Part shown: positions 19,329-49,330 of the stretch, one piece after another
Position numbering within the stretch: position 1 is the first letter of the stretch
How the letters are laid out: each line of letters opens with the position of its first letter
Origin: Rhodospirillales bacterium
Lineage (GTDB): Bacteria; Pseudomonadota; Alphaproteobacteria; Rhodospirillales; UBA2165
Length of the DNA: 49,330 nt
Reading direction: 5' to 3'
Assembly: GCA_016777585.1 (NCBI GenBank)
Contig: JADHRD010000005.1
Span: 1 to 49,330, forward strand
The notes under the pieces: generated by a model
Database searches by the model: none
What the model was told of the DNA's origin: nothing
The model's input: the letters and a program-made list of their open reading frames with translations, nothing else
Position numbers and translations under genes: made by a program

Positions 19329-19337
19329 AAATACCAC

Positions 19338-26958: not shown

Positions 26959-26979
26959 TTATGCATACCTTTTAAAAAA

Positions 26980-28915: not shown

Positions 28916-28927
28916 GAAATGGTTTTT

Positions 28928-34144: not shown

Positions 34145-35362
34145 ATGACTGAATCTAAAAATAAAATTCTTATTGTGGGCGCTGGACCTGTCGGTCTTAT
34201 TGCGGCCTTAAAACTATCACAATCCGGAGTTCCTGTGACGATACTTGAGAAAGAAAGCACACTTCTCGACGACCCAAGAGCAGCGACAACACACCCTGCA
34301 ACTCTCGAAATGCTAAGTGAATTAGGAATGTTAGAAGAGGCTGAGAAACAAGGTCTCGTGTGTGATGAAATGTATTTTTGGGATCGCCCAAAGGGCAAGA
34401 TTATCGCTAAATTTAATCACCGTATACTAAAAGATCAGACTAAATTTCCTTATGTGGTCCAATGTGAGCAATATAAACTTGCTAAGATTGCCCTAAAAAT
34501 GCTGGATGATTATCCAAATTCAGAGGTCTTGTTTTCCCATGAAGTAACTGCGGTTAACCAGAAGTCAGACCAAGTTGAGTTAGATGTAAATAATACTAAT
34601 GGTAGTAGTAAGTTCGTTGGCTCATTCGTGATTGGGTGCGATGGAGGAAAGAGTGTCATTCGCAAATTCTCGGAGATAGAATTTGACGGTTTTACCTATC
34701 CTGAGCGATTTGTAGTGTATACAACGCCTTTTGATTTCGAGACAGCCAGAGGTTGTTGTTATCGGAATTATTACGCTGACCCAGTAGAATGGAGCAATTT
34801 ATTTAAGGTATCTGGAAATGGGCCGCCGGGCCTCTGGCGTGCGGTTTTCCCGACCGATATGAAGCAATCTGACAAAGAAGTTATGAGAGAAGAATTTGTA
34901 CAACAAAAAATGCAAAAATTCTTTCCAAAATCTGGTGACTACGAAATTATTCATAGAAACGTATATACTATTAATCAACGGGTAGCATCCAAGTTTAGAA
35001 AAGGTCGAATTCTTCTCGCTGGAGACTCAGCCCATTTAAATAATTCAATTGGTGGCATGGGATTGAATGGCGGTATTCATGATGCCTGCAATGCCGCTGA
35101 AAAATTAATCAGCGTCTGGAGAGGTGCGTCCAATATAGATTATTTAGATACTTACGATTTGCAACGCCGCACTATCACGCATGAATTTACACAAGCTCAA
35201 ACAATAGCTAACAAAAAGCGTCTAGAAGCAAAAGACCCCGAAACACGTGAAAAGAATCTAGCCGAGCTTGCTGCAACAGCTGAGGATCCAAAAAGAGCTG
35301 AAAATTTTCTGCTGAATAGTTCAATGTTGTCAGCGGTGCGCCGTGCAGCTACATTAGGTTAA
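34145..35362 (+). CDS. Class A FAD-dependent monooxygenase (aromatic hydroxylase type)
   Basis: This flavoprotein hydroxylase of about 405 residues belongs to the PHBH/UbiH/MhpA superfamily. It has the N-terminal FAD Rossmann motif VGAGPVGLIAALKL, the DG motif in IGCDGGKSVIR, and GRILLAGDSAHLNNSIGGMGLNGGIHDA binding the FAD ribityl chain. The ATG at 34145 (MTESKNK) is the start; a TTG four codons earlier is less likely. It probably hydroxylates an aromatic or N-heteroaromatic acid. It is followed 22 bases later by an isochorismatase-like amidohydrolase. That pairing recalls nicotinate and hydroxypyridine degradation, but the substrate is unproven. Confidence 0.85.
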   Translation: MTESKNKILIVGAGPVGLIAALKLSQSGVPVTILEKESTLLDDPRAATTHPATLEMLSELGMLEEAEKQGLVCDEMYFWDRPKGKIIAKFNHRILKDQTKFPYVVQCEQYKLAKIALKMLDDYPNSEVLFSHEVTAVNQKSDQVELDVNNTNGSSKFVGSFVIGCDGGKSVIRKFSEIEFDGFTYPERFVVYTTPFDFETARGCCYRNYYADPVEWSNLFKVSGNGPPGLWRAVFPTDMKQSDKEVMREEFVQQKMQKFFPKSGDYEIIHRNVYTINQRVASKFRKGRILLAGDSAHLNNSIGGMGLNGGIHDACNAAEKLISVWRGASNIDYLDTYDLQRRTITHEFTQAQTIANKKRLEAKDPETREKNLAELAATAEDPKRAENFLLNSSMLSAVRRAATLG

Positions 35363-35384
35363 TTAACATTAACAGAGAAAATAA

Positions 35385-35996
35385 ATGACTGAACTTGATA
35401 TTTATGAAAAACAGAATTTTGGTAATTTAAGTGGTATTGGCTCTAATCCAGCTCTTCTAATTGTAGATTTTGTGAATGGATTTACTGATCCTAATCAATT
35501 TGGAGGAGGCAACATTAATGATGCCATAAATAAAACATCAGAATTATTAAAGTTTTCAAGATTACAAAAATTTCCTATAGCAATGACTAGAGTAGTTTAT
35601 GCTGACAATGGAAGTGATAACGGTATTTTTTGCATTAAAGCTCCGGCCTTGTCGAATCTAACAGAAAGTAATCCAAGTAGCCAAATAGTTGAGGAATTAT
35701 CTCCTATTGCTGGTGAGTATATTGTAAGAAAGACCCAACCATCAGCATTTTTTGGTACGAATCTTGTTGGATGGTTAACAAGTAAAAGCGTCGATACAGT
35801 GTTAGTTACTGGTTGCACAACCTCTGGATGTGTAAGGGCATCTGTAATTGACTCTATGAGTTATAATTTCAGAACAGTTGTGGTTACAGATGGAGTTGGA
35901 GATAGGGCTATTGGGCCACACGAAGCAAACTTATTTGACATGCAGCAAAAGTATGCAGATCTAATGTCTGTAGACGAAATCATAAAGTATTTTTAG
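35385..35996 (+). CDS. Isochorismatase-family cysteine amidohydrolase
   Basis: This 203-residue protein has the full cysteine hydrolase triad: Asp28 in LLIVDFVNGF, Lys116 in VRKTQPSAFFG and Cys149 in TTSGCVRAS. The block GDRAIGPHEANLFDMQQKYAD is typical of the branch containing N-carbamoylsarcosine amidohydrolase and maleamate amidohydrolase (NicF). Such enzymes release ammonia from an amide or carbamoyl group. Next to a flavin hydroxylase, a ring-fission amide product is a reasonable substrate guess. Cytoplasmic. Confidence 0.87.
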   Translation: MTELDIYEKQNFGNLSGIGSNPALLIVDFVNGFTDPNQFGGGNINDAINKTSELLKFSRLQKFPIAMTRVVYADNGSDNGIFCIKAPALSNLTESNPSSQIVEELSPIAGEYIVRKTQPSAFFGTNLVGWLTSKSVDTVLVTGCTTSGCVRASVIDSMSYNFRTVVVTDGVGDRAIGPHEANLFDMQQKYADLMSVDEIIKYF

Positions 35997-36068
35997 ACTA
36001 ATAAATTAAATTGTAGTTTGATCAACAATTAACATAAAGTTTCAAAGTAATTTTAATTATAACGCAGA

Positions 36069-37202
36069 ATGGATATTTGGGTGAAATTATCATATTTTAT
36101 ACAGCCAGTTCATCCACTAAACCGCAATTATCGCGAGATCCTCAACGAAGATATAGATTCTGTTATATTGGCTGATCGTCTTGGCTATGAAGAAGCTTTT
36201 ATTGGCGAACACTTTACTGACATCGCAGAGCCAATCACGTCTAGTCTTATATTCTTAGCAAGACTTGCTCCAGTTACAAACCAAATCAAATTGGGCAGTG
36301 GAGTAACAAATTTACCAGTTTATCATCCGGCCATGATTGCTGGGCATGTTGCAATGATGGATAATCTCCTAGATGGCCGCTTCATATGGGGAATAGGTCC
36401 GGGAGGGCTTCCATCAGATATTGAAATGTTTGGTAATAGGGAGTTGGACCGTAACAAGAAAATGGTGGAAGTCTTTGATCAAGTTATGAGTTTATGGTGG
36501 GGTGAGCCCCCTTATAATTTAAAAGGTGAATTTTTTGAAGCAACAACTAGAGAGACACTCACGCCAGAGATTGGACAAGGTATTGTTCCTAAACCGTTAA
36601 GTAATCCTCACCCACCTGTTGTGGTAACTGCATTAGCACCACATTCTAAGGGGATAACGTTAGCCACTGAGCGGGGTTGGCATCCAATTTCTTGTCAATA
36701 CGTTCAAGATCATTGGATTGCCACTCATCTCCCAAAATATTTAGAGGGGCTCAAAAACATTGGCAAACCTCAAGATCCGCGGGGATGGCGGGTTGCAAAG
36801 TGTATATTTGTAGCTGAGGATGAAAAGGTAGCTGATAAATATGCTAAAAGTGTTGATGGACCTTACGGATTTTATTTCTCAAATCTAATGAAAAAATTAT
36901 CCGGTGGAGGAAAAATTGGTTTATTTTCAGCATACCCTGATCAAGATGAAAAAGAGATCACTCTTGAACAATCTCTCAAGATGCAAGTTATAGCAGGCAA
37001 TCCGAATAGCGTCGCTGAGCAAATTATAGCCTTGAGAGAAAAAATAGGTGATTTTGGAACTCTAATATATACGGGACTGGATTGGTGTAACAAAGAGCTG
37101 GGAATAAGGTCAATGGAACTTATGGCAGAGAAAGTAATGCCTCAGGTGAACAATTCCTTGAAATCAAGCGATAGAGACCTTAACCTTAAGTTCAACCTAT
37201 AA
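36069..37202 (+). CDS. LLM-class flavin-dependent oxidoreductase
   Basis: This luciferase-like monooxygenase of 377 residues has the TIM-barrel pattern ADRLGYEEAFIGEHF, IKLGSGVTNLPVYHP, GRFIWGIGPGGLPSD and FGTLIYTGLDW. It resembles the limonene monooxygenase-like group that uses reduced FMN from a separate reductase. No flavin reductase gene is beside it. It probably belongs with the two preceding genes, with a 72-base gap that could hold its own promoter. Substrate unknown. Confidence 0.86.
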   Translation: MDIWVKLSYFIQPVHPLNRNYREILNEDIDSVILADRLGYEEAFIGEHFTDIAEPITSSLIFLARLAPVTNQIKLGSGVTNLPVYHPAMIAGHVAMMDNLLDGRFIWGIGPGGLPSDIEMFGNRELDRNKKMVEVFDQVMSLWWGEPPYNLKGEFFEATTRETLTPEIGQGIVPKPLSNPHPPVVVTALAPHSKGITLATERGWHPISCQYVQDHWIATHLPKYLEGLKNIGKPQDPRGWRVAKCIFVAEDEKVADKYAKSVDGPYGFYFSNLMKKLSGGGKIGLFSAYPDQDEKEITLEQSLKMQVIAGNPNSVAEQIIALREKIGDFGTLIYTGLDWCNKELGIRSMELMAEKVMPQVNNSLKSSDRDLNLKFNL

Positions 37203-37232
37203 ATATTATATCAAGTTTAAATTAAAATTTAG

Positions 37233-38021
37233 TCAGGGAGTAGAACGACGACTGCCACCGTCCATATAAATAGAACTACCAAAAACATATGAGCATACTT
37301 CCGACGATAAAAAGCAGGCTACGTTAGCAATCTCATCCGGCTCCGCAATGCGTCCAGCAGGCAAGGATTCACCTAACTGAATTAATAATTCTTCAATATT
37401 AACACCTTCTTTATCAACACGTACCTTTTGAATATCTCTTGCTCGTTCAGTATTCGTAATACCAGGACAAATCACATTTACCAAAATTCCATCTTTGGAT
37501 ACCGCATCGGATAAAGCCCGTGTAGTATTAAGAACCATCGCATTGGCAACAGACGTTGGTATATTAGCGCGGTTTGGACTCACACCCGCTGCACCGGCTA
37601 TATTTACTACCCTTCCCCAATGATTCTTCTTCATATAAGGCACAACTAATTGAGACATACGTAAATAGCCGTAAGACTTAAGAGATAATGCATCAGTTAT
37701 TGATTCAGCTGACAAGTCGAGAATGTCTCCTCCACCTGCCGCACCAGCTACATTAATCAAAATATCAATCCCACCATAGTTATTATTGCAATAATCAACG
37801 ACTTTCTTACACTCTGATATTTCAGTAAGATCAGCCACTACAAATATACATTTTCCCAAACTTGAATTAATATCGTTCTGAATTTCTGCTAATAATTTTT
37901 GGTTACGTGCTGTAATGCAGACCTCAGCGCCCTCAGCGGCAAGAGCAAGTGCACATGCCTTTCCAATACCTCGACTAGCTCCAGTGATGATTGCTCGCTT
38001 ACCTTTTAGACCTAAATTCAT
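37233..38021 (-). CDS. SDR-fold protein with degenerate catalytic tetrad
   Basis: This 262-residue protein clearly has the short-chain dehydrogenase fold: TGASRGIG (residues 14-21) for the dinucleotide, an NVAGAAGG segment, ILVNVICPG and SSIYMDGG. However, the catalytic positions are replaced. VVNIAGAAG carries Ala/Gly where the catalytic Ser belongs, and IPTSVANAM carries Thr156 and Asn160 where Tyr and Lys of YxxxK belong. It may bind NAD(P) and do other chemistry or have a structural role; divergent SDRs of this kind exist. It is divergent from the cupin gene. Confidence 0.83.
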   Translation of the reverse strand: MNLGLKGKRAIITGASRGIGKACALALAAEGAEVCITARNQKLLAEIQNDINSSLGKCIFVVADLTEISECKKVVDYCNNNYGGIDILINVAGAAGGGDILDLSAESITDALSLKSYGYLRMSQLVVPYMKKNHWGRVVNIAGAAGVSPNRANIPTSVANAMVLNTTRALSDAVSKDGILVNVICPGITNTERARDIQKVRVDKEGVNIEELLIQLGESLPAGRIAEPDEIANVACFLSSEVCSYVFGSSIYMDGGSRRSTP

Positions 38022-38183
38022 TTTAAACCCCGCATTATTTTAACATTAGAATTCTTAGTATTATTTAAATTTTTTACCATACTAGAGTTAAATTTTAAAA
38101 TACTTTAGAATTCTAAATTTTTTTGTTACTTATTCAAAAATAAGTTTCAATATTAAGAAATTAAAATTCAGAGGTTATTATTT
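38022..38183. promoter_or_regulatory. Divergent promoter region with paired TTAGAATTCT palindromes
   Basis: Between the degenerate SDR gene and the cupin gene lie two related palindromes: ATTAGAATTCTTA (38045-38057) and the perfect TTTAGAATTCTAAA (38104-38117), with centres 59 bases apart. Paired symmetric sites in a divergent promoter are typical of a repressor or of a regulator that loops DNA. The regulator is unknown. GAGGTTA at about 38170 is the cupin ribosome site. Confidence 0.4.
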
Positions 38184-38672
38184 ATGCCTAAAATAGATTT
38201 GAATAATCACAGTTATACCGTTGGCCGTTATCCAGAAGCCTTAAAAGAGTTTTATGAAGGAATAACTGACTCGTGCAGACAAATAAACGCTGGCGACTTA
38301 GCGGGACTAACCCAATTTGGCGTAAATAAAGTGATTTTACCTCCAAAATCAGGTACCGCAATGCGGCACTGGCATGAGAATGAGGATGAATTCGTAATTA
38401 TAATTTCGGGCTTAGCAACGCTCGTGGATAACGATGGACAGCACGAGCTATCTGCTGGAGATTGCGCTGCATTTAAGGCTGGTGATAAGAATGGTCACGC
38501 TATTTTGAATAATTCGGAAGATGACGTTATTTTATTTGAAATTGGGTCGCGGGCTGAGCGAGAGATTGTACATTATCCAGATAAAGATCTCAAAGTTGAT
38601 AGTGAAAAAATTCAAGGTACAAGAAAAATTACTTTTACCACAAAATCGGGTAAAATAATTTTTTCAACCTAA
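38184..38672 (+). CDS. Small cupin-domain protein
   Basis: This 162-residue single-domain cupin has motif 1 GTAMRHWHENEDEFVIIISG (two His and Glu metal ligands) and motif 2 GDCAAFKAGDKNGHAILN (third His), so it should bind a metal ion. Proteins of this kind include dioxygenases, isomerases and small-molecule binders. No function is assigned. It stands alone on the plus strand, convergent with the CocE-like genes. Confidence 0.8.
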   Translation: MPKIDLNNHSYTVGRYPEALKEFYEGITDSCRQINAGDLAGLTQFGVNKVILPPKSGTAMRHWHENEDEFVIIISGLATLVDNDGQHELSAGDCAAFKAGDKNGHAILNNSEDDVILFEIGSRAEREIVHYPDKDLKVDSEKIQGTRKITFTTKSGKIIFST

Positions 38673-38706
38673 TAAGAATTTATACTTACTCCCCCTGCAT
38701 TCAGGC

Positions 38707-40434
38707 TTATGGAATTACCGGCAAGAGAATAAAAGGTTGTTTGTCCTCGCTAAAATGCAATGTAACCTCATTATCAAAAATCTCGACGGGTCGATCATCT
38801 GGATCATCGTGCAAAAATGGGCCGACGCCTGTAAAAGCATTTTTCATATTTGATAGTCCTGAATCTACGGGCCCTGGGTAGACATAATCTTTCCCTCGAA
38901 CACTTAAAGCTAAACGATATCCTTTAGGCACGACAATACATGTTGGCCAGATCTCGATATCTAGCGGATAAATCTGATCTGGAGTCAATAGTTGTCTCTC
39001 ATCATGGGTATGATACGGCCTCCATTCTTCACTTTTTTTATTATCAACTTTGCGATGTGATGCCCTCAACCAACCTTGACCGATCGGCGTATGCGGGTCA
39101 AGCGCACCCTGAAATGTAATTTCCTTAAGATCAGGGGTAAAAATACGCAAAACAAGAAACAAATCTGCATCCTCTGTATCAGATGATATCCAGAGTTTTG
39201 CTGCCATTGGTCCAGTAATCTCCGTCTCGGAGTCCAAAGGCCGGGACATAAATGTTAAACCATCAGATAGCCCTTTATAAGTTAAACTAGCATTTTCAGT
39301 ACTTTTCTCTCGACTGAGAGTTGCATTGCTGGCATTTAGATAGAACTTCGTCCATTGGGTCGTTTTCAGAGGCCAATTATTTTCAAAACGCTCGACAAAC
39401 TTCTCTCCTGGGTGCCGAACTTGCAACTGTACTTTAGGCCTCTCACCCCAGCCATTTTCCTTGCCCTTCAAAAAATAATCAAAAAAGTCAAGCTGAATTT
39501 GGCGCCCATAATCAGTATAAAACTCAGTCCAGTGCTCGATACCATGAACTTCAAGCCATTTATTTTCTGTACCTGCTAAATAAAAGCCCTCAAAATTTCC
39601 ACGAGGGTGCAGACCATTACCACCCCAATTTGCTGAGGAGAGAAGTGGGATGTTAATTTTAGAGAGATCTGGCGTACGATCTTTCCAATACTTATCGTCT
39701 AAAAAGTGTTCGTGAGCACTCGCACCTAAATCTTCACGATTTGCACCAAGTTGCTCTTCTGTAAGTGTTTCTGGACCAGAGACCCAATCACCAGTCATCC
39801 TGGATCTCTCGCCACGAGATCCTAGACCATACTGCACACTATGGACTTGCTTATCATACCAATTCTTAACAAAAGTGGTTAAAATACCACCGTGATGACT
39901 CATATCACGATAGAAATCTACCGCTCCTTCCCAAACACACATGGCTGCCAGAGACGGCGGTTGCTCAGCTGCTACTTGCCATTGATTGATAGCGTAATAA
40001 CTAATGCCATTTAATCCAACTTTTCCAGATGACCAGGGCTCTCTCGCTGCCCATTCAATACAATCATAAAAATCCTTAGTCTCACGTGGGCTCCAACATT
40101 GCACATAGCCTGGGGAGCGGCCACAACCTCTAGAATCAACGCGAATGCAAACATACCCTTCTGGTACCCATTTCTCGGGATCAACAACTTCCCATTGTTG
40201 ATATTTATTTGTCGAATTTGCCGTTACGTCCGGATGCTCTTCAGCCATTCGTTGCCAACATGTAATGTAACCATCTTCAAAGTGCAGCCACTTTCCGTAT
40301 GGACCATAACTAATTAACACAGGGTAGCGGCCTGTATCTAGAGGACGATAGACATCACAACGCAAAATAATGCCATCATCCATCTCGATTGGAACATCCC
40401 AATCGATTGCCATATTATCACGAAAGTCAGTCAT
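38707..40434 (-). CDS. CocE/NonD-family hydrolase (downstream copy)
   Basis: This 575-residue protein has an alpha/beta-hydrolase domain of the X-Pro dipeptidyl-peptidase S15 group and a C-terminal jelly-roll domain (DADLFLVLRIF and RGKDYVYPG). The nucleophile is Ser145 in NGISYYA, with a likely His301 in HGIEHWTEFY. Where CocE has its catalytic Asp (a W-Y-D type motif) this protein has ANWGGNGLHPRG, so the Asp is missing or moved. It is a tandem paralogue of the gene upstream, which ends 12 bases before it. Such enzymes cleave esters or amides. Substrate unknown; no signal peptide. Confidence 0.86.
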   Translation of the reverse strand: MTDFRDNMAIDWDVPIEMDDGIILRCDVYRPLDTGRYPVLISYGPYGKWLHFEDGYITCWQRMAEEHPDVTANSTNKYQQWEVVDPEKWVPEGYVCIRVDSRGCGRSPGYVQCWSPRETKDFYDCIEWAAREPWSSGKVGLNGISYYAINQWQVAAEQPPSLAAMCVWEGAVDFYRDMSHHGGILTTFVKNWYDKQVHSVQYGLGSRGERSRMTGDWVSGPETLTEEQLGANREDLGASAHEHFLDDKYWKDRTPDLSKINIPLLSSANWGGNGLHPRGNFEGFYLAGTENKWLEVHGIEHWTEFYTDYGRQIQLDFFDYFLKGKENGWGERPKVQLQVRHPGEKFVERFENNWPLKTTQWTKFYLNASNATLSREKSTENASLTYKGLSDGLTFMSRPLDSETEITGPMAAKLWISSDTEDADLFLVLRIFTPDLKEITFQGALDPHTPIGQGWLRASHRKVDNKKSEEWRPYHTHDERQLLTPDQIYPLDIEIWPTCIVVPKGYRLALSVRGKDYVYPGPVDSGLSNMKNAFTGVGPFLHDDPDDRPVEIFDNEVTLHFSEDKQPFILLPVIP

Positions 40435-40446
40435 AAAATAATAATC

Positions 40447-42216
40447 CTAAGGAATGATTGGTAACATTATATACGCCTGCCGATTAGCACCTGTATGCAA
40501 TTTGACCGTGCCACCAAAAATTTCGGCAGGCCTGTCCACAGGATCATCATGCTTAAATAATCCACAGCCTGTCCATCCAGCATATTCACCAAAATCAGTT
40601 CCACTATCACCTGGATAAACATAATCTTTCCCTCGAACAGAGAAACCTAATCTATAACCTTTTGGAACTACAATACATGTTGGCCATACCTCAACGTCCA
40701 CTTCATAAGTCTCATCTTTATTGAGTGGCTGAATTTCATCATGAGTGTGATATGGCCGGTAAGGCAAAGTCAGGTCTTTATCAAGTTTACGATGTGAGCA
40801 ACGCAGCCAACCTTGAGCTAAAGGAGTGTGCGGATCAAGTGCACCTTGAAATGTCACTTCTTTCATATCGGGACTAAAAGCTCTGAGTACCAAAAATAAA
40901 TCTGCGTCATTTGTCTCTGAAGATACCCAAAGTTTTGAAGCTATCGGACCCGTAATCTCAAGGTCAGTCTCCAATGGATCTGATAAAAAAGTCAAGCCGT
41001 CTGAAAGTCCTTCATATTCTGCAGAAGATTCAGTAACCTGTTCTTCCGTTGAAATCGTCATAGTATCAGGGTGAATATAGTATTTTGTCCAATCTGTGCG
41101 GGCTAGAGGCCACTCATTCTCGTGCCGCTCAACGAATACTTCGCCTGGATACCTAATTTGAAGTTGAACTTTGGGTTGACTTTGCAACCAACCTGTATCT
41201 TCGCCCTTTAAAAAGTGACCAAAAAAACGTTTCTGCAAATCTATTCCATAATCCGTGTAAAAATGTGTCCAATGCTCAATCCCATGAACTTCGAGCCATT
41301 TATGATTAGATGCTGAACGCACGAATCCCTCAAAATTTCCTCTTGGATGAAGTCCCTGACCACCCCAATTTGCCGTCGACAACATAGGTGTTTTAATTTT
41401 TGAGTGATCTGGCATGCGCGATTGCCAAAACTCATCTGTATCCAATTTATTGGCCAAGCAGTCAGCATAAAAATTACGGCGGTTTGCGCCAAGCTCCTCC
41501 TCTGTTAATGTTTCGGGACCAGAAACCCAATCTCCCGTCATACGAGATCTGTGACCCCGCGATCCACGTCCATTTTGCAAAGTATAAACTTGGGCAGTTG
41601 ACCAATCTTCAACGAACCCTCTGCAAAAAATTCCACCATGCCACGCCATATCCCGATAAAAATCGAGAGCTCCTTCCCAGGCACACATGGCACTCAAGTG
41701 TTTCGGCTGCAAGGCTGCCGTTTGCCATTGATTCTCTGCGTAATAAGATATTCCGTTTAAACCCACTTTACCGTTTGACCAAGATTGAACACCCGCCCAA
41801 TCAACACAAATGGATTGATCTTTAGCTTCACGGAGAGACCATATGTCGATAACACCTTGTGAGCGTCCCGCGCCCCGCGAGTCGACCCTAATAACAATAT
41901 AGTCATCTGGAACCCATTTTTCGGGATCGACAACTTCCCATTGCTGGTATTTGTTAGTTGAATTAGCTGGAACATCTGGGCGCGATTCGCACATTCTTCT
42001 CCATTGGTCTCCATAACCATCTTCAAAATGTAACCATTTACCATAGGGGCCGTAAGACAAAATTACGGGATATTCGCCCTCTTCAATGGGCCTATAAATA
42101 TCGCACCTTAGAATAACTCCATCATCCATTTCAATTGGCACATCCCAATCAATCGCCATTCCATCGCGTATATCTGTTCTATAACTCTGATTGATTGATT
42201 TATTTACGTCACTCAT
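40447..42216 (-). CDS. CocE/NonD-family hydrolase (upstream copy)
   Basis: This 589-residue paralogue of the downstream gene shares long blocks, such as VPIEMDDG, SYGPYGKWLHFEDGY, STNKYQQWEVVDPEKWVP and SRMTGDWVSGPETLTEE. Ser157 lies in NGISYYA, and ANWGGQGLHPRG again replaces the CocE Asp motif. Likely His314 is in HGIEHWTHFY. It carries 12 extra N-terminal residues. The close but clearly diverged sequences suggest an older tandem duplication with different substrates. First gene of this leftward pair; its promoter lies in the 42217-42618 gap. Confidence 0.86.
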   Translation of the reverse strand: MSDVNKSINQSYRTDIRDGMAIDWDVPIEMDDGVILRCDIYRPIEEGEYPVILSYGPYGKWLHFEDGYGDQWRRMCESRPDVPANSTNKYQQWEVVDPEKWVPDDYIVIRVDSRGAGRSQGVIDIWSLREAKDQSICVDWAGVQSWSNGKVGLNGISYYAENQWQTAALQPKHLSAMCAWEGALDFYRDMAWHGGIFCRGFVEDWSTAQVYTLQNGRGSRGHRSRMTGDWVSGPETLTEEELGANRRNFYADCLANKLDTDEFWQSRMPDHSKIKTPMLSTANWGGQGLHPRGNFEGFVRSASNHKWLEVHGIEHWTHFYTDYGIDLQKRFFGHFLKGEDTGWLQSQPKVQLQIRYPGEVFVERHENEWPLARTDWTKYYIHPDTMTISTEEQVTESSAEYEGLSDGLTFLSDPLETDLEITGPIASKLWVSSETNDADLFLVLRAFSPDMKEVTFQGALDPHTPLAQGWLRCSHRKLDKDLTLPYRPYHTHDEIQPLNKDETYEVDVEVWPTCIVVPKGYRLGFSVRGKDYVYPGDSGTDFGEYAGWTGCGLFKHDDPVDRPAEIFGGTVKLHTGANRQAYIMLPIIP

Positions 42217-42618
42217 TGTAGTCCTCCAGTATGCAATCTAACTTTTTAATAGAGTTTCTCTGTATTTTTGGAAAATAATCAAACAAAAAACTTCTTAAAT
42301 GATATTTTTAGTTTAAGAAAATTTTTATATTATAATAAAAAACTATGAAAATACAATGGTCAAAATGCTTTATAAAAATAAATTTTTAACAATAATCCTA
42401 TTTATTTAAAGATAAAAATCAGTATATTTATTTTGGATTATGGCCTATAGAGAACCCAAATTTAACAAAAAAATATCCGCGGAGAATTTATAAAATTAAT
42501 TACTTGATAATTGGACTTCAAGTTCAAAATGAATATGATAAATCTATTACAGTATTTAATTTAGTTAGGATAATTTATCCAGGATCATATTACCGTATAA
42601 TTGAAAGAAGAAAAATAT
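42217..42618. promoter_or_regulatory. 402-base AT-rich divergent region, CocE pair / XRE-cupin regulator
   Basis: No gene is supported in this gap; open frames of 14 and 17 codons at 42343 and 42439 look random. It holds an inverted repeat TTCTTAAA-12-TTTAAGAA (42292-42319) upstream of the CocE operon, and TTGGACTTCAAGTTCAA (42511-42527, one mismatch to perfect symmetry) about 92 bases before the regulator start. These are candidate operators for the XRE-cupin protein, which would then regulate itself and the CocE pair. This is inference from symmetry and position. Confidence 0.4.
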
Positions 42619-43314
42619 ATGGCCAATAGCATTAAGTTAACAAAAAATGAGCCTGAATTAAAATCTTTTGAGTCTGTTGGTAATAGCCATTCATTTGGTT
42701 TGCACGTAAGAACTCTCAGAAAGAGGGCAACTATGACTTTGTCTCAACTTGCTGATGCCTCTGGAATGTCAATTTCAGCAATTTCAAAGATCGAAAATAA
42801 TCAAATTTCTCCGACTTTTATAAATTTAATCCGACTGGCCGAGGGTCTGAAAATGCACATAGCTGACCTTGTTACAGTAGAGCCATCAAATCATACGCCT
42901 TCGGCACGGCTCGCAGTAACACGAAAATCTGAACAAACCTTCACAGAAGCAGATCATTATGGATTCTCAGCATTATGTAGTAGCTTACAGCAAAAAAAAA
43001 TGAAACCTTTGATTACTCGGGTGAGCCCTGAAACGGCGGAATACCCAGTCGAGAAAGTTGCCCATCACGGTGAAGAATTTATTTATGTTTTAGAGGGAGC
43101 AATTGATATTCGTACCGAATACTATAAGCCGGTTCGATTAGAGAAAGGGGACAGCATGTATTTTGATAGCTCGATGCCTCATTGTTATGTTAGCTCTAAC
43201 AATGAGGAAGCTGAAGCTTTCGTCATGTGGTTACCTGACCCTAATCATAGTGAAGACGAAGTTAATGAAGTTATTGGAAACGTTGCCAAAATAAGGAACC
43301 CTCAAACTAGGTGA
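42619..43314 (+). CDS. XRE-family transcriptional regulator with C-terminal cupin domain
   Basis: This protein of 231 residues has an N-terminal helix-turn-helix (LRKRATMTLSQLADASGMSISAISKIENNQISPT, about residues 29-62) and a C-terminal sensor cupin (HHGEEFIYVLEGAIDI, GDSMYFDSSMPHCY). Such regulators, relatives of PuuR, usually control neighbouring catabolic genes and sense a small molecule through the cupin. The ATG at 42619 follows a purine-rich AGAAG; a TTG at 42601 is the alternative. It is divergent from the CocE pair and convergent with the alpha/beta hydrolase gene. Confidence 0.9.
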   Translation: MANSIKLTKNEPELKSFESVGNSHSFGLHVRTLRKRATMTLSQLADASGMSISAISKIENNQISPTFINLIRLAEGLKMHIADLVTVEPSNHTPSARLAVTRKSEQTFTEADHYGFSALCSSLQQKKMKPLITRVSPETAEYPVEKVAHHGEEFIYVLEGAIDIRTEYYKPVRLEKGDSMYFDSSMPHCYVSSNNEEAEAFVMWLPDPNHSEDEVNEVIGNVAKIRNPQTR

Positions 43315-43339
43315 AAGCGCTTTTAAATAGGCAGAATTA

Positions 43340-44122
43340 TTAAGGACTCAAAAATGGAAGTACTGAGTCCAAAAATTTTGACGGGTCTTGGAGCTGTGGA
43401 CAATGACCAATTCCAGGTAACTCAATCAACTGTGAATTATTAATTCCTTTGTGAAGGTCATATGAGAGTTGCGGGGGAGTAGTAGCATCAGCAAGACCAA
43501 CAATAATTAATGTTGGATTAGTTATCCTATCTAACTTTGGATTATTATCTAATGACGTAAGTCCTAGAGCAGCATTAGCGAAAAGCTCTGGGTCAGCCTT
43601 TGAAAGATATTGTTTCCTAATGTCAACAATACTTTTATTCTTAATTATAAAATCTTCAGGAAACATTCTCTTTATGGCTAGATCAAGAACCGATTCCATT
43701 CCTTCACTTTTGGCTTTATTTGCGAGGATTCTTAGAGGTTCTTTTGCCTGATCTGGAAAAGCAGCGCCCGTATCAACTAAAACAAGTTTATTAATAATTG
43801 TACCGTGATGTATTGCTATTGTACCAGCAACAAACCCGCCAAAACCGTTTCCAATGAGATGCGTATCTGGCGGAAGAGATAATTCTTTAATTGCAGATGA
43901 AATCAGATCTGCATATGCCTCTATGTTTTGTTTTATTGGCCCTGTAGAGGATCCAAAGCCAGGAAAATTCATTCTTGTCACTCTGAAATGCAAACTAAGT
44001 TCATCAATAACGCTATCGTAAACAGACATTTCTGCCAGAAGAGTGGGAAGTAAGATCAAGTTAGGTCCATCACCTACCTGCTCATAGTGGATTCTATTTT
44101 CCCCAACTATAATATCCGCCAT
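43340..44122 (-). CDS. Alpha/beta-hydrolase-fold protein lacking the catalytic Ser
   Basis: This 260-residue protein follows the alpha/beta-hydrolase pattern, with NFPGFGSS, IIVGLADATTPP (Asp212) and PGIGHCPQ (His240). The nucleophile elbow, however, reads LIGNGFGG: Gly93 (codon GGT, plus-strand ACC at 43844-43846) replaces the usual Ser. The oxyanion-hole HG after the first strand is also replaced (LLPTLLAEM). Hydrolysis by the usual mechanism is not expected. Relatives in this fold include N-formylmaleamate deformylase (NicD) and meta-cleavage hydrolases. It lies downstream of the molybdenum hydroxylase genes on the same strand with a 31-base gap to the next gene. Confidence 0.85.
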   Translation of the reverse strand: MADIIVGENRIHYEQVGDGPNLILLPTLLAEMSVYDSVIDELSLHFRVTRMNFPGFGSSTGPIKQNIEAYADLISSAIKELSLPPDTHLIGNGFGGFVAGTIAIHHGTIINKLVLVDTGAAFPDQAKEPLRILANKAKSEGMESVLDLAIKRMFPEDFIIKNKSIVDIRKQYLSKADPELFANAALGLTSLDNNPKLDRITNPTLIIVGLADATTPPQLSYDLHKGINNSQLIELPGIGHCPQLQDPSKFLDSVLPFLSP

Positions 44123-44153
44123 TTGCGACTCCTAAATACTACTATCTCTATCA

Positions 44154-46478
44154 CTATCTATTTCCATCTATTAAGTTACACAAATATTCTGGTGTAACCG
44201 GATATTTATCGATTATCACATCAAATTCTTTCAAAGCATTCTCAATCGCGGATACTATAGCTCCCGCCGCTGGAATAGTCCCACCTTCACCCGCTCCTTT
44301 TAACCCAAGAGGGTTTAAGGGTGATGGTGTTTCCTGATGCACAATATTTATCGGTGGCATTTCGGTTGCCAAGGGAAGAAGATATTCCCCGTAATTCGTA
44401 GTTTGGGGCTGACCACTTTCATCATAAATCATCTCTTCAAATAGTGCATTTCCAATGCCGTGAACAACTCCCCCAACAATTTGTCCTTCAACAATTAATG
44501 GGTTTATTTTTCTTCCACAATCGTGGGCAACACTATAATTTAGAAGCTTTACCTCACCAGTTCCAATATCTACTTCGACTTCGCATACATTACTTCCACT
44601 CGCATGAGGTGGCCCCTTCGAACCATCATACGAAGTAGCCTCTAAACTTGCTGTATAACCTGTTGGAACTGCGCCGCCGCTCATCGGAGCGAATTTTAGT
44701 GCGAGCTCTCCCAAAGTTATAGTAATATTGCTTCTTGCCTTATCTCGAATAATGCCATCTTCGATTTCTAAGTCGTCATACTCAACGTTTAGAATTTCAG
44801 CTGCAAGGCCTAAAGCTTTTTCTCTAACTTCTTTAGCGGCCGAGAAAGCTGCTGTGCCAATATTTACACCCACCCGACTTGCAACCGTCCCCACTCCTTG
44901 GGGAAATTTAGATGTATCACCTATCTCAACATGAATGTCATCAATGCTAATGTCCAATTCATCTGCTACTATCTGGCGAAGTATGGTCTTATGCCCTTGT
45001 CCCTGGCTCGCCGCGCCAGAGCTGATATAAACCTTCCCTAGATGATCAACTCTCACAGTTACACCCTCATAGGGGCCCACACCAGTATCCTCAATACAGG
45101 AAGAAATTCCCATACCCAAGAATCGACCTGCTTTACGAGCTGTCACTTGACGCGAGGTAAAACCATCATAATCAGCCAGTTTGAGAGCTTCTTCAAGTAA
45201 TTTATGATAATCACCACTATCATAAATCATTGGACGACCGTTAAAGTGAATTAAGCCTGTTTCATATGGAAAATCATTTTTGTGTACGAAATTTTTTCTT
45301 CTTACCTCTGCAGGTTCGAGCCCCAATGATCTAGCGACTGTTTCCATTACCCTCTCCATTGCATAAGCTGCATTTGGTCTTCCTGCCCCTCTGACTGGCG
45401 AGTTTGTGACAGTATTTGTAAATACAACATCCTGCGTAACATCGAGTGAGGATATCTTATACGGACCGGGTAAGGGCGTTATAGTAGTAAATGGAAGTAA
45501 AAGGCCATAAGGTATATAAGCTCCATTATCTAAAATAATCCTGCCTTTTACACCTAAAACACGCCCATCATCATTCGCAGCAATTTCTATCTCCCACCAA
45601 GTATCCCTCTGTGTATTTGTTGATAAAAAATGTTCTCTCCTATCTTCAACCCACTTTATTGGGCGCTCTAATTTTCGAGATGCCCATGGAACTATAATTT
45701 CCTCTACATAGAAACCAGCCTTGGGCCCAAAACCCCCTCCAACATCCGGCGCAATTACTCGGATGCGACTTTCAGACATCTCAAATTGGCTCGCAAGTGA
45801 CCTACGAATTAAATATGGACATTGAGTTGCAGACCAGATGGTTAATTCATCCAAAGACGCTGTATAATTTGCGAGAACGGCTCGACCTTCCATTGAATGA
45901 CACCCGCCACGGTGTTGCAAGAACTTAGTCTCCAAAATATGATCTGCTGCTTTAAAATCTTGAATAATATTTCCGTAACTAACATTAAGTTTTGCCACAA
46001 TATTATCTTTTGAATCTTTATGTGCTAAGGGAGCATTTTTTAGTACCGCGTCTTTCACGCGAACAATGGGTTCTAAAACTTCAAATTCAATTTTCACCAG
46101 TGGGATAGCATCCTCAGCAATATGGCGCGTGTCTGCAACTATAAATGCAATTGCTTCTCCAACAAAACATACCTCGTCTCTTGCTAGGGGCAATGGACGC
46201 AAATCTTGTTTAATTAGTGGGCTCGGATAAGTCTGCACTGCTGGACGATTAATCGGCTCCTCTAAATCAGAAAAGGTAAATACCGCATGGACACCCTCTA
46301 AACGCTGTGCATCAGTTGTATCAATAGTTTTAATAAGCGCATGTGCATGCGGACTTCGCACAAACGCCCCGTGAAGCACGCCTGGTAATCGAATATCATC
46401 AACATACTGACCTTTGCCAGTAATTAATGGCTTATCTTCGCCTCTTAATACCTCCGCTCCAAAATATCTCGCACCCAT
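44154..46478 (-). CDS. Molybdenum hydroxylase large subunit (form II CoxL-like)
   Basis: This is a molybdopterin-binding subunit of the xanthine oxidase family, about 774 residues. It has the N-terminal GEDKPLITGKGQYVDDI, GGGFGPKAGFYVEE, the active-site loop SPVRGAGRPNAAYAMER and the catalytic Glu in KGAGEGGTIPAAGA. The GAGR loop marks form II; true CO dehydrogenase has AYRCSFR with the copper-binding Cys. Thus CO is not the likely substrate, and an aromatic or N-heterocyclic hydroxylation is more plausible. The ATG at 46478 has AGAGGG 6 bases upstream; the frame upstream of it lies in the FeS gene and is rejected. Confidence 0.92.
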   Translation of the reverse strand: MGARYFGAEVLRGEDKPLITGKGQYVDDIRLPGVLHGAFVRSPHAHALIKTIDTTDAQRLEGVHAVFTFSDLEEPINRPAVQTYPSPLIKQDLRPLPLARDEVCFVGEAIAFIVADTRHIAEDAIPLVKIEFEVLEPIVRVKDAVLKNAPLAHKDSKDNIVAKLNVSYGNIIQDFKAADHILETKFLQHRGGCHSMEGRAVLANYTASLDELTIWSATQCPYLIRRSLASQFEMSESRIRVIAPDVGGGFGPKAGFYVEEIIVPWASRKLERPIKWVEDRREHFLSTNTQRDTWWEIEIAANDDGRVLGVKGRIILDNGAYIPYGLLLPFTTITPLPGPYKISSLDVTQDVVFTNTVTNSPVRGAGRPNAAYAMERVMETVARSLGLEPAEVRRKNFVHKNDFPYETGLIHFNGRPMIYDSGDYHKLLEEALKLADYDGFTSRQVTARKAGRFLGMGISSCIEDTGVGPYEGVTVRVDHLGKVYISSGAASQGQGHKTILRQIVADELDISIDDIHVEIGDTSKFPQGVGTVASRVGVNIGTAAFSAAKEVREKALGLAAEILNVEYDDLEIEDGIIRDKARSNITITLGELALKFAPMSGGAVPTGYTASLEATSYDGSKGPPHASGSNVCEVEVDIGTGEVKLLNYSVAHDCGRKINPLIVEGQIVGGVVHGIGNALFEEMIYDESGQPQTTNYGEYLLPLATEMPPINIVHQETPSPLNPLGLKGAGEGGTIPAAGAIVSAIENALKEFDVIIDKYPVTPEYLCNLIDGNR

Positions 46479-46486
46479 AATACCCT

Positions 46487-46966
46487 CTACTTTGCTCGCA
46501 ATACTTCCGCTGCTGCTTTTGCCGCCGCTACGATATTCTGATAACCGGTACAACGGCATATATTTCCAGAAATAGCCTCTCTTATTTCTTCTTCATTTGG
46601 ATCAGGGTTCTCCCTGAGAAATGCGACTAATGTTGTCAAAAACCCGGGTGTACAATACCCACATTGTAAACCATGATTCTTCCAGAATGCTTCCTGCACG
46701 GGGTGAAGGTTATTGCCATCTGCTAAACCTTCAATCGTAGTTATGTGTTTCCCATTAGCCTGCACACCAAGCATCAAACATGCTCTAATAGCTTCTCCAT
46801 CTACTAATACCGTACAAGCCCCGCACACGCCATGTTCACAACCAAGGTGGGTGCCTGTTAAGCCCAGATTCTCTCGCAAAAAATCCGCCAGACTAAATCG
46901 CGTTTCAACGGCACCTGAGTAGGACTTGCCATTAACATTTACGTCTATATTCCGTTGATCAACCAT
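46487..46966 (-). CDS. Molybdenum hydroxylase [2Fe-2S] subunit (CoxS-like)
   Basis: This 159-residue small subunit has the plant-type ferredoxin cluster CEHGVCGACTVLVDG and the second cluster motifs CGYCTPGF and ICRCTGYQN. It passes electrons from the molybdenum centre to the FAD subunit. The order FAD-FeS-Mo on the minus strand (M-S-L) is the standard cox gene order. It starts directly after the FAD subunit gene, with AGGA about 10 bases upstream. Confidence 0.95.
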   Translation of the reverse strand: MVDQRNIDVNVNGKSYSGAVETRFSLADFLRENLGLTGTHLGCEHGVCGACTVLVDGEAIRACLMLGVQANGKHITTIEGLADGNNLHPVQEAFWKNHGLQCGYCTPGFLTTLVAFLRENPDPNEEEIREAISGNICRCTGYQNIVAAAKAAAEVLRAK

Positions 46967-46967
46967 T

Positions 46968-47837
46968 TTAAGTCGGTCCTCCTGCGCGTTCTAATGCTTT
47001 TATTAATGCTCGTTCAACCAAAGTTCCCGCTAATCTTTTTCGATATGATGAACTGTAGTAAGCATCTGACATTGTCTCTATTTTTTTTACTTCCTCAACT
47101 GCGGAGCGTATCAAATCCTCATTAACTTTTTGACCAATAATATCTAATTCAAATGCTTTTAACCGGATTGGCTTAACATCTGCACCGGCAATTGTTATAG
47201 CTACCTTTGAGATTTCATCGTTTTTATCAAGTTCAATTAGCACGCCCGCAGCGCATATTGCAAAATCCCCGTGTCGACGAGCAAATTCAACAAAGGAATA
47301 GCCATGATTTAATTTCCACTTGGGAAAAGATAATGAGACCAACACATCTTCAGGTGCGAGGCATGGCATCATATAAGCAAAGGACCATTCATCAAAAGGT
47401 ATCACTCGTTGACCATTTTTATTGTGCACAACCATTTGCGCATCATAAAGACTGGCTAAAGCAGGAAGCTCTGCTGCCGGATCGAGATGACACAAACTTC
47501 CACCTATTGTTCCTCTATTACGAGTTTGAAAATGACCAACATACGCTAACGCCTCATTTAGTATAGGGGCTATAGTCTGAATGCTAGACGAACTTAACAA
47601 CTCTCGCTGGACTGTCATCGCGCCTATATCAATAGCATCATCTGAGAGTTTAATAAAATTCAATTCTTCAATTTTGTTGATATCTATAACATCCTCTGGC
47701 GTCACAAATCGCATATTCATCATTGGCATAAGTGACTGACCGCCAGCTAGGATTTTTGCATCCTCAAGCATAGATGTCAGATCCACTAACTCTGATAAAG
47801 ATTGAGGATCATGATACTTAAAAGGTGCTGGTTTCAT
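46968..47837 (-). CDS. Molybdenum hydroxylase FAD subunit (CoxM-like)
   Basis: This 289-residue FAD-binding subunit has the two flavin-binding motifs AGGQSLMPMMNMR (usual AGGHSLLP form) and TIGGSLCHLDPAAELPA, and a CO_deh_flav_C-type C-terminus. It starts within the end of the CoxG-like gene (20-base overlap), so the four genes are likely one transcript. It hands electrons to an unidentified acceptor, probably quinone. Confidence 0.93.
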   Translation of the reverse strand: MKPAPFKYHDPQSLSELVDLTSMLEDAKILAGGQSLMPMMNMRFVTPEDVIDINKIEELNFIKLSDDAIDIGAMTVQRELLSSSSIQTIAPILNEALAYVGHFQTRNRGTIGGSLCHLDPAAELPALASLYDAQMVVHNKNGQRVIPFDEWSFAYMMPCLAPEDVLVSLSFPKWKLNHGYSFVEFARRHGDFAICAAGVLIELDKNDEISKVAITIAGADVKPIRLKAFELDIIGQKVNEDLIRSAVEEVKKIETMSDAYYSSSYRKRLAGTLVERALIKALERAGGPT

Positions 47838-48405
47838 TTTTAGATTTATTACCTCCCAATCTAAGTTTTTTTACTCCGACCTTCATTAAAAGTTTTAAAC
47901 CAGAGATTTCATTTGCATTTAGAGTATTTCCGTCTTCCATAGTTAAAACTTTTTCTAAGTTTTGGGCAAATTCTTTAGTGAGCTCAATGGCAACACTTTC
48001 GATCAAACCACTTGCGCGACCATATTGAGCTATAGCACCATTTAAATTAAGATTTGTCTTTACACTAACTTGAGTGCTAACCCCATCTAACCCGGCGTCC
48101 TCTACCTCTGACAATTTAAAAAAAACTGTAGCTTCAGCTCCGCCCCTACCCTTCTTATCGGATCCGCCAGCCTTTACGAATACCTCGTTTTTTTCATTGT
48201 TAATCTCAATAATTTCCCCAGTTCCGGAAAAAACTAACTTGACCGGTCCCAATCTGACGGTGGCTTCTCCTTTATACAATTTATTGTTGGATGTTTCAGT
48301 GATTGTCACACCCGGAATACACGGGGCTATTAAAGCAACATCTGTAAGAACCTCCATGGCGATAGACTTTGAAAGTGGAACATAAAAATCATTTTCTAGA
48401 AGCAT
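47818..48405 (-). CDS. CoxG-like SRPBCC-family protein
   Basis: This 195-residue protein has a CoxG/SRPBCC START-like domain, with PCIPGVTITE and LNLNGAIAQYGRASGLIESVA typical of the family. CoxG recruits CO dehydrogenase to the membrane in carboxidotrophs; related proteins accompany many molybdenum hydroxylases. The C-terminus (about residues 150-195) is basic and lacks the long proline-rich tail of some homologues. It is first in this operon and divergent from the binding-protein gene. Confidence 0.88.
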   Translation of the reverse strand: MLLENDFYVPLSKSIAMEVLTDVALIAPCIPGVTITETSNNKLYKGEATVRLGPVKLVFSGTGEIIEINNEKNEVFVKAGGSDKKGRGGAEATVFFKLSEVEDAGLDGVSTQVSVKTNLNLNGAIAQYGRASGLIESVAIELTKEFAQNLEKVLTMEDGNTLNANEISGLKLLMKVGVKKLRLGGNKSKNETSTF

Positions 48406-48528: not shown

Positions 48529-49330
48529 ATGAAGATTAATTTCTTAGATTTTACAAGAAGAGAATTTATGAAGAAGGCAGCTATAGCAGTAGCGGCAGGT
48601 GCAACACCAACCACATTTGTAAACAGCGCTTTTGCTGCCAGCGAAGAAGATAAAATAATAGCTGCAGCAAAAAAATTAAAGCCTGTTGGCTTGCGCGGGA
48701 TGATTTGGTCGCTTTACATGTCTGGCATGAAAAATGCTGAAGCTGAATTTAAAAAGGCGACAGGTATCAGCGTTGAGAGCATTCAAGATATCAGTGTTTT
48801 CGTTATTCCTCAGCGTGCAATGGCTGAAGCAATTTCAAGATCGGATAAATTTGATTTCTTTCATGTCGACTCCAACATGATACCCTCTCTTGCATCAGCA
48901 GGCCTTCTAGAACCCCTCGATGCTTACATGAAACAAGCAGATTTTAAAATAGATGCTGTGGGCGATTTTGCAAATTTTATGAAATATCAGGGAAACACTT
49001 ATGGAATTCCAACTGATGGCAATGTTCACACACAATTTATGCGCTGGGATCTTGTAGACGCTGGAAAGAAAGCATACGAAGATAAATATGGAAAATCCCC
49101 AGAATGGCCAAAAACATGGGAAGAAGATCAGCAAATGATGGAGTTTTTCCAGAATACTGATAATAAAGTCTGGGGTTCAGCTAATCTTAGGAACCGGGCA
49201 AATGGTGTTACATGGTGGTATATGTATTTTTACTCCGCGGGTGGCTTTCCTTTTGACGATGATATGAACCCGACCCTAAATAATAAGGCAGGACAATACG
49301 CTCTCGACACCTACCTTAAAATTAAAAAAG
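48529..49330 (+). CDS. Tat-exported ABC transporter substrate-binding protein (partial, 3' end beyond window)
   Basis: An open frame of 267 codons runs off the window end. It begins MKINFLDFTRREFMKKAAIA, a good twin-arginine signal (TRREFMK, Arg10-Arg11) followed by a hydrophobic stretch and a likely cleavage site at AFAA. The mature part reads as an extracellular solute-binding protein of the family 1 (sugar-type) fold: ISVFVIPQRAMAEAISRSDKFDFFHVDSNM, GLLEPLDAYM, GNTYGIPTDGN and TWEEDQQMMEFF. GGGAG lies 7 bases before the ATG. The Tat route suggests folding or cofactor assembly before export. Ligand unknown; permease genes presumably follow. Confidence 0.85.
   Translation, partial: MKINFLDFTRREFMKKAAIAVAAGATPTTFVNSAFAASEEDKIIAAAKKLKPVGLRGMIWSLYMSGMKNAEAEFKKATGISVESIQDISVFVIPQRAMAEAISRSDKFDFFHVDSNMIPSLASAGLLEPLDAYMKQADFKIDAVGDFANFMKYQGNTYGIPTDGNVHTQFMRWDLVDAGKKAYEDKYGKSPEWPKTWEEDQQMMEFFQNTDNKVWGSANLRNRANGVTWWYMYFYSAGGFPFDDDMNPTLNNKAGQYALDTYLKIKK

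Follow-up and report, generated by a model that had tools for sequence, protein, structure and literature searches.

A probably composite catabolic region in a Rhodospirillales bacterium and a candidate N-heterocycle pathway around a NicF-like amidohydrolase

The window analysed here, 49,330 nucleotides from a Rhodospirillales bacterium (assembly GCA_016777585.1, contig JADHRD010000005.1, positions 1 to 49,330), is a complete contig (C93) of a source genome (G000) that is 85% complete. From position 34145 to its end it carries a dense run of catabolic genes, which are treated below as three units: a flavin hydroxylase with a NicF-like amidohydrolase (unit I), two CocE/NonD hydrolases with a molybdenum (Mo) hydroxylase and an ABC importer (unit II), and a luciferase-like (LLM) flavin oxidoreductase with two further genes (unit III). 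The first-pass annotation had grouped the genes from 34145 to 48405, about 14 kb, as one possible undescribed catabolic system for an aromatic or N-heteroaromatic compound. On balance, a composite is slightly favoured: two or more conserved gene sets together with other genes, among which unit I would convert an N-heterocycle into a maleamate-type acid without NicX or NicD.

Genes of the region and their continuation

Unit I opens with FMO-A, a class A flavin hydroxylase of the PnpA/HspB type (34145-35362, plus strand, 405 aa; Pfam FAD_binding_3, E 1.9e-59), followed after 22 bases by the gene of a NicF-like amidohydrolase of the isochorismatase fold (35385-35996, plus strand, 203 aa; Isochorismatase, E 2.5e-33). 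FMO-A presents the fold and the FAD motifs of class A flavin hydroxylases. By family profile it is nearest to PnpA (p-nitrophenol 4-monooxygenase, 343 bits) and then to HspB (6-hydroxy-3-succinoylpyridine 3-monooxygenase, 272 bits), and these two are also the best fold matches of its predicted model (pLDDT 81.5) among solved structures, sharing fold and FAD motifs at an identity of 28-32% over the structural alignment. The NicF-like protein has as its best solved relative the entries 3ot4/3uao (229.7 bits, E 2e-67), which we take to be Bordetella NicF, and matches N-carbamoylsarcosine amidohydrolase, a relative of the same fold family, with 149 bits. Its triad D28-K116-C149 is present, and all three residues are invariant in 15 aligned sequences.

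The window's contig end shares 69 identical bases with the end of another contig of the same genome, C141. Because this exact overlap and the gene order of the sister genome, Rhodospirillaceae bacterium TMED23 (G005), agree, the locus can be traced onto C141. That contig carries the genes MI1, HMGL (HMG-CoA-lyase-like), a family III CoA transferase, NmrA, TRAP, FMO-B, MI2 and FMO-C. MI1 is a 250-residue protein of the maleate-isomerase/AMDase superfamily, with both canonical cysteines in the places compared; the copy on C141 has both cysteines, and its best solved matches are AMDase (the first being a two-cysteine mutant) and then maleate isomerase. The CoA transferase gene overlaps that of HMGL, whose product shows the motifs GPRDGLQ, HLHNTRN and GGCPFAP. 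To judge by sequence, unit I looks like part of a larger conserved catabolic pathway that continues on C141 and is apparently undescribed.

MI2 departs from its superfamily at the active site. In 50 of 72 aligned places Met and Gly stand at both canonical catalytic positions (MI2 type), 20 have Cys at each (MI1 type) and 2 are unclear (one locus fetched twice); the 72 places are not all distinct, as some loci appear under two names. The distinct MI2 sequences, 48 in number, nevertheless all keep a cysteine elsewhere, C175. The MI2 model (pLDDT 91.6) superimposes on Nocardia maleate isomerase (2xed) with Z 32.5 and rmsd 1.8 over 237 residues, and its own superfamily ranks top in the fold search; the modelled MI2 thus keeps the maleate-isomerase fold without the known catalytic cysteine pair.

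Downstream of NicF lie the genes of unit III: LLM (36069-37202, plus strand; Bac_luciferase, E 2.7e-38), an SDR dehydrogenase (37233-38021, minus strand; family match) and a small cupin (38184-38672, plus strand; Cupin_2, E 5.8e-13). Unit II follows with CocE1 (38707-40434) and CocE2 (40447-42216), both on the minus strand and both with Peptidase_S15 and PepX_C domains and the serine motif GISY. An XRE-cupin regulator (42619-43314, plus strand; HTH_3 and Cupin_2) is divergent from CocE2, and an alpha/beta-hydrolase-fold protein that lacks a serine nucleophile comes next (43340-44122, minus strand; Abhydrolase_1, E 2.4e-21). The Mo hydroxylase, an enzyme of the xanthine oxidase family, comprises a large CoxL-like subunit (44154-46559, minus strand; MoCoBD_2, E 1.6e-74), a CoxS-like [2Fe-2S] subunit (46487-46966, minus strand; NCBIfam match) and a CoxM-like FAD subunit (46968-47837, minus strand; named by eye and gene order). 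CoxL probably starts near 46478, as its homologues in two relatives (G014 and G021) start there; it bears an RGAGR motif and a GEGG motif, the Glu of which is presumably catalytic. A CoxG-like SRPBCC protein (47818-48405, minus strand) was named by eye and position, and the NCBIfam search gave it no match. The last gene, for the solute-binding protein (SBP) of the ABC importer (48529-49329, plus strand), is truncated by the contig end, with its remainder on C141.

The genes named in the first-pass annotation are indeed full-length open frames where they had been placed, with strong Pfam or NCBIfam family matches. Its list lacked the SDR gene, and the set does not close at 48405, since it goes on with the ABC importer from 48529. 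Several labels used in this work (ABC, GMC, DMT, ACDH, PEP-mutase-type lyase, polysaccharide deacetylase, FAD subunit and CoxG) were assigned by eye or from annotated records, without a family search. The remainder of the window, also read by eye, holds cobalamin-synthesis genes (1250-11329), a gene for a VOC-fold extradiol-dioxygenase-like protein with that of a UbiX-like flavoprotein immediately after it (12560-14200), and a cluster for purine/allantoin degradation that includes a xanthine dehydrogenase, a transporter and PuuE of its own (14302-30440). Part of these purine-degradation genes also lies near unit I in G001, G002 and G005.

Conservation of the units in relatives

Of the 24 family genomes searched, 15 have a NicF ortholog (E<=1e-90): the source genome and 14 of the 23 others. 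FMO-A directly adjoins NicF in five genomes (G000, G001, G003, G005 and G007, the copy in G007 being truncated by a contig end), and FMO-A relatives of 47-55% identity adjoin FMO-C in G012, G016 and G021. MI1 is the immediate neighbour of NicF in 8 of the 14 relatives with NicF. The gap between the two is -6 to 86 bases in G002, G006, G007, G008, G010, G016 and G021 and about 250 in G022; it reaches 1.4 kb in G012 and 18,224 bases in TMED23. Around MI1, in variable order and completeness, stand the family III CoA transferase, HMGL, an NmrA protein, a TAXI-TRAP transporter, FMO-B, FMO-C and MI2. The suggestion of an undescribed catabolic system is supported for the pathway with nicotinate-like enzymes to which the conserved FMO-A/NicF pair seems to belong; for the 14 kb as a whole it is not supported.

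The gene-neighbourhood comparison that had been recommended as a check was run, and relatives carry parts of the region on separate contigs, the kind of outcome that had been named beforehand as counting against a single system. NicF lies on G012:C56, G021:C106 and G014:C194, and the Mo hydroxylase ortholog on G012:C63, G021:C84 and G014:C13; the LLM ortholog is separate again on G021:C13 and G014:C213. Altogether, NicF is on contigs other than those of the unit II genes in G001, G012, G014 and G021.

Unit II has a conservation of its own. CocE1 adjoins CocE2 in G001, G005, G012, G014 and G021, the XRE-cupin regulator is at the same place in TMED23 and G012, and the alpha/beta protein also adjoins CoxL in G012 and G014. 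The CoxS-like and CoxM-like subunits are co-conserved in G012, G014 and G021; a CoxG-like homologue was found in G014 and was unmatched in G012 and G021. On G012:C63, a contig without NicF, the order of the unit is kept (CoxG apart). G021:C84, likewise without NicF, holds the CocE pair, all three subunits of the Mo hydroxylase and the importer in a rearranged order; the regulator, the alpha/beta protein and CoxG were unmatched. In G014 the CocE pair is on one contig and the Mo hydroxylase, CoxG and the alpha/beta protein on another; in G001 the CocE pair is present and the Mo hydroxylase is not. Another Mo hydroxylase of G012 lies at locus L043 (C56, 9330-13613), about 1.4 kb from NicF; its large subunit is 34% identical to the window's CoxL, and it differs from the enzyme that belongs to unit II in G012.

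Across the 24 family genomes, with relatedness ignored, the 5 genomes with a CoxL ortholog all belong to the 7 with a CocE2 ortholog (p 0.0005) and to the 15 with NicF (hypergeometric p 0.07), and 4 of them to the 7 with LLM (p 0.014); the ortholog thresholds were set by the authors, at more than 1000 bits for CocE2 and CoxL and more than 600 bits for LLM. Unit II is regarded as a separate uptake-and-oxidation module that is located here between NicF and MI1. Its Mo hydroxylase shares the three subunits and the RGAGR and GEGG motifs with form II CO-dehydrogenase-like and quinoline 2-oxidoreductase-type Mo hydroxylases and differs from them in its conserved company, the CocE pair and the ABC importer. 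Since the closest solved relatives of CoxL are quinoline 2-oxidoreductase (464.6 bits) and 6-hydroxypseudooxynicotine dehydrogenase (464.5 bits), with CO dehydrogenases at 439 bits or less, this similarity weakly suggests that unit II may itself act on an N-heteroaromatic compound.

LLM follows neither unit I nor unit II. Its ortholog is found among other genes, beside neither unit, in G001, G007, G014, G015 and G021, and in a genome of another family (G025) a CoxL relative (36%) lies about 6 kb from it. In two relatives (L192 and L193) the LLM ortholog is near genes for a TfdA-like dioxygenase and an acyl-CoA dehydrogenase and, as read by eye, for a 785-residue flavin hydroxylase fusion.

In TMED23, where the gene order from FMO-A to SBP is fully kept at 84-97% protein identity, NicF and MI1 are 18.2 kb apart, and the block between them contains unit III (LLM, SDR and cupin) and, from unit II, the CocE pair, the regulator, the Mo hydroxylase and the ABC importer. 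Insertion of units II and III between NicF and MI1 would explain this most simply, the alternative being that the compact order arose by loss. No mobile-element trace was seen at the edges of the TMED23 block apart from an 11-base AT-rich inverted match. A common operator for the XRE regulator before CocE2, CoxG/SBP and FMO was also considered and dropped, as the intergenic stretches yielded no convincing motif; the sole recurring stretch, ATTATCCTAAC, precedes CocE2 in three of the genomes (the source genome, G012 and G021) and is not found there in TMED23.

NicF-like loci and the question of NicX and NicD

To place unit I in a wider frame, the NicF alignment was scanned against one genome per species and the best 80 loci among the matches listed, of 61-93% identity, were taken. 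Matches were counted over the full length of every locus as fetched (3 to 20 kb); in GC-rich contigs, where the gene caller chose shadow frames, the counts rest on tblastn with known proteins. FMO was found at 48 of these loci, MI2 at 38 and either at 54. Where about 10 kb could be read on either side of NicF, which was so at 35 loci, FMO and/or MI2 is linked to it at 23 and neither at 12; at one of the latter (L051, in G002) FMO and MI2 are both 10-12 kb away. The link of FMO and MI2 to NicF is thus common and not universal. Linked loci come from many Alphaproteobacteria, some Chloroflexota and one betaproteobacterial assembly, and the unlinked ones include the gammaproteobacterial and myxobacterial loci. 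Among cultured environmental bacteria, FMO stands beside NicF in Falsiroseomonas stagni DSM 19981 (L084) and in Neoroseomonas marina JC162 (L120), in the latter together with MI2.

Neither NicX nor NicD was found at any of the 80 loci (E<=1e-20); under laxer limits a single NicD-type match, of 27% identity, appeared. HMGL occurs at 9 of the 80 and a lyase of the PEP-mutase/isocitrate-lyase family at 14, never together. Candidates for the opening of a cyclic amide are the products of polysaccharide-deacetylase-family genes, present at 12 of the 80 loci, and of metallo-beta-lactamase-fold genes, present at 8; neither kind was seen beside unit I on the window or at L144, except for the PuuE-type gene of the purine cluster. 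On a Mariluticola plasmid (L131, 10171-16150) and an Agrobacterium vitis plasmid (L132, 9402-13209), FMO-A relatives of 57 and 52% identity are accompanied by an amidohydrolase, an 'amino acid synthesis' family protein and a DUF4286 protein, and no NicF is annotated in the stretches shown.

The loci placed in the tree that do join NicF to NicX form a different group. Ten plasmid loci, drawn from the top matches of 134 records and not a random sample, hold NicF proteins of 53-58% identity, with NicX in 10 of 10 and NicD in 8 of 10; these NicF proteins form one clade (100/96), and the window protein lies outside it. Plasmid clusters of Thioclava and Novosphingobium capsulatum combine FMO, an MI2-like protein and a distant isochorismatase (41-42%) without NicX.

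Within the window, no NicX stands beside NicF. The alpha/beta protein at 43340-44122, which had been called NicD-like and put forward as a parallel to the deformylase, was rejected as NicD because it lacks the serine nucleophile: it has G-N-G-F-G where two NicD-type proteins have G-H-S-M-G, with Gly at the serine position, and the nucleophilic serine is likewise absent in its orthologs from three relatives (four genomes in all). The protein is nonetheless kept beside the Mo hydroxylase. The parallel drawn earlier with ring fission and deformylation of the nicotinate type consequently fails, as neither NicX nor NicD is found in the window or at the best 80 NicF-like loci.

With the nicotinate/2,5-dihydroxypyridine pathway (NicC-NicX-NicD-NicF-NicE, and Hpo-Nfo-Ami-Iso of Pseudomonas putida S16) unit I has in common the D-K-C triad of NicF, a flavin hydroxylase, a maleate-isomerase-type protein and, plausibly, a fumarate-type end product; it differs in the absence of NicX and NicD from the best 80 loci and in the additional CoA transferase and C-C lyase, and FMO-A is only 20% identical to the flavin hydroxylase of the Azospirillum NicX-NicD-NicF cluster. 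The pyridine pathway of Arthrobacter nicotinovorans, in which 2,6-dihydroxypyridine hydroxylase acts and 2,3,6-trihydroxypyridine then gives maleamate, likewise has a flavin hydroxylase followed by a maleamate stage; its hydroxylase (2vou) is not among the best 60 of the 94 solved matches of FMO-A. Chloroflexus possesses a succinyl-CoA:D-citramalate CoA transferase and an R-citramalyl-CoA lyase. The overlap of the family III CoA transferase gene with the HMG-CoA-lyase-like gene recalls these enzymes, by description and not by sequence, and is taken as a lead only.

Riboflavin/lumichrome degradation was also considered and rejected, as the enzymes in the accessible part of the source are different (PMC12746152). 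No matching cluster was found in the accessible parts of the literature on homarine, 3-hydroxypyridine and citraconate, and the part of the 2016 AMDase survey that was available (PMC4996985) contains no gene-cluster, isochorismatase or monooxygenase terms. In the open-access literature, as far as its texts were accessible, the unit I cluster was not found, which is no proof of its being unpublished.

A proposed pathway for unit I and its alternatives

The composite reading draws on gene content, adjacency, co-conservation, the separate clade of NicX-linked NicF proteins and active-site residues; from these we infer every reaction, the substrate class and the transporter cargo in what follows. 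The TAXI-TRAP transporter would import the substrate, an N-heterocycle that flavin hydroxylases of the PnpA/HspB type would oxidise. After the ring has been opened by a route without NicX and NicD, the NicF-like enzyme would free ammonia from the resulting maleamate-type acid (possibly alkylated), and the two-cysteine isomerase MI1 would convert the maleate-type acid into a fumarate-type acid. The CoA transferase and the HMG-CoA-lyase-like enzyme would then cleave a malate-type product, and in other lineages a lyase of the isocitrate-lyase/PEP-mutase family may take their place.

Several observations weigh against this reading. No ring-opening enzyme can be named in unit I. FMO-A is not beside NicF in G002, G004, G006 and G008, MI1 is on another contig than NicF in G001 and G014 and was unmatched in G003 (57% complete) and G004 (82% complete), and several of the genomes are incomplete. 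At 26 of the 80 loci neither FMO nor MI2 is found (at 14 of these the sequence is short on one side or both, at 12 it is not), and HMGL or a PEP-mutase-type lyase was seen at only 16 of the 54 linked loci. The scan patterns came from the window's own family and the loci are the best of the matches listed, so that distant NicX-linked NicF proteins are under-sampled. A different Mo hydroxylase (34-36% to CoxL) is near NicF at 2 of the 80 loci (L064 and L090, one of them in G012), and an LLM relative (41%) lies 5 kb from NicF at L112. Finally, the source genome has a NicX-like/NicD-like gene pair elsewhere, unlinked to the window (C118:3619-5441), so that the pathway may be a split one; this pair and the 26 loci without either partner are the main caveats.

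A more specific form of the proposal concerns the ring itself. HMG-CoA-lyase-like enzymes and lyases of the PEP-mutase/isocitrate-lyase family can use alkylated malates or their CoA esters, and it is for this reason that an alkylated ring is suspected as the substrate of unit I, a hint and no more. In this version unit I would belong to a widespread undescribed pathway for alkyl-substituted N-heterocycles, such as methylated pyridines or pyrroles. The ring would be taken to an alkyl-maleamate by as many as three flavin hydroxylases together with MI2, the isomerase relative with its displaced cysteine, without a NicX-type dioxygenase or NicD, the NicF-like amidase and MI1 would give an alkyl-fumarate or alkyl-malate, and the CoA transferase with HMGL, or the PEP-mutase-family lyase, would split it into pyruvate and an acyl unit. 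Taken with all these details, the proposal is tentative and rather doubtful.

The alternative that survives best dispenses with the N-heterocycle: the NicF-like protein would act on some other amide or carbamoyl compound, and the flavin hydroxylases on a phenol or another aromatic. It would account for the closeness of FMO-A to PnpA, a nitrophenol hydroxylase, and for the presence of N-carbamoylsarcosine amidohydrolase in the fold family of NicF. An acyl-CoA ligase gene, which would also fit an aromatic or aliphatic acid, stands in front of the FMO-A/NicF pair in G001 and G003 and in front of NicF in G002, G004, G006 and G008. In G016 and G021 the surroundings of NicF include Rieske-type hydroxylase genes. 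However, Bordetella NicF is the clearly better match (230 bits vs 149), a maleate isomerase superfamily gene adjoins NicF in eight genomes, and no aromatic ring-cleavage dioxygenase was recognised in the NicF neighbourhoods read by eye, which are part of those fetched. This explanation is considered unlikely.

Less probable still is a 2,5-dihydroxypyridine pathway of the nicotinate type with its genes at separate places in the genome: the pair on C118 would carry out ring fission and deformylation, and the window's NicF would release ammonia. The NicX-like protein of C118 keeps both iron-ligand motifs, the adjoining NicD-like alpha/beta hydrolase has an intact G-H-S-M-G motif and a flavin reductase gene is nearby; the closeness of the window's protein to the solved Bordetella NicF would also fit. 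HspB, the second-best solved match of FMO-A, converts 6-hydroxy-3-succinoylpyridine into 2,5-dihydroxypyridine (PMC6122326). Nevertheless, the identity of the C118 protein to five annotated NicX proteins is just 32-37%, against 61-83% among these five, and such a pathway would have no need of a CoA transferase or HMGL. NicX-like and NicF genes are on different contigs in every family genome where both were found, and a fixed link between them is disfavoured because four genomes with NicF (G004, G006, G007 and G008; 82, 94, 88 and 68% complete) have no NicX-like match at E<=1e-10. The C118 pair, which stands near flavin reductase, MarR-type regulator and TRAP-type genes (L143, 2394-5441), is possibly another N-heterocycle cluster of the same genome. 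At a further locus, L145 (G001:C218, 3013-9610), two tandem NicX-like genes are followed by a Mo hydroxylase, the CoxG-like and FAD parts of which are fused in a single 480-residue protein.

The least probable explanation, to which very little weight is given, is that the 14 kb forms one pathway in which the Mo hydroxylase attacks an N-heteroaromatic, followed by the flavin hydroxylase, deformylation by the alpha/beta protein and ammonia release by NicF: the full order shared with TMED23, the N-heteroaromatic substrates of CoxL's closest solved relatives, NicF in all five genomes with CoxL and the different Mo hydroxylases near NicF in G012 and at L090 would agree with it, but among the genomes searched the order is confined to the source genome and its close relative TMED23, and in G012, G014 and G021 the parts are dispersed over different contigs, NicF and MI1 are adjacent in eight relatives and in TMED23 are split by the block, a serine nucleophile is missing from the alpha/beta protein, and CoxL tracks CocE2 more closely than NicF. 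The case is a warning that catabolic genes densely packed on a metagenome contig can represent several juxtaposed units.

If unit I does function in the proposed way, its cluster would provide named candidate genes for a step like the conversion of 2,3,6-trihydroxypyridine into maleamate in Arthrobacter, because the origin of maleamate in the nicotine pathway of that organism is called unclear in the part of PMC6122326 that was available. It would also represent a second route from an N-heterocycle to maleamate, without NicX and NicD, which would be spread over many Alphaproteobacteria and some Chloroflexota and would occur in cultured bacteria of the Roseomonas type, where it could be tested.

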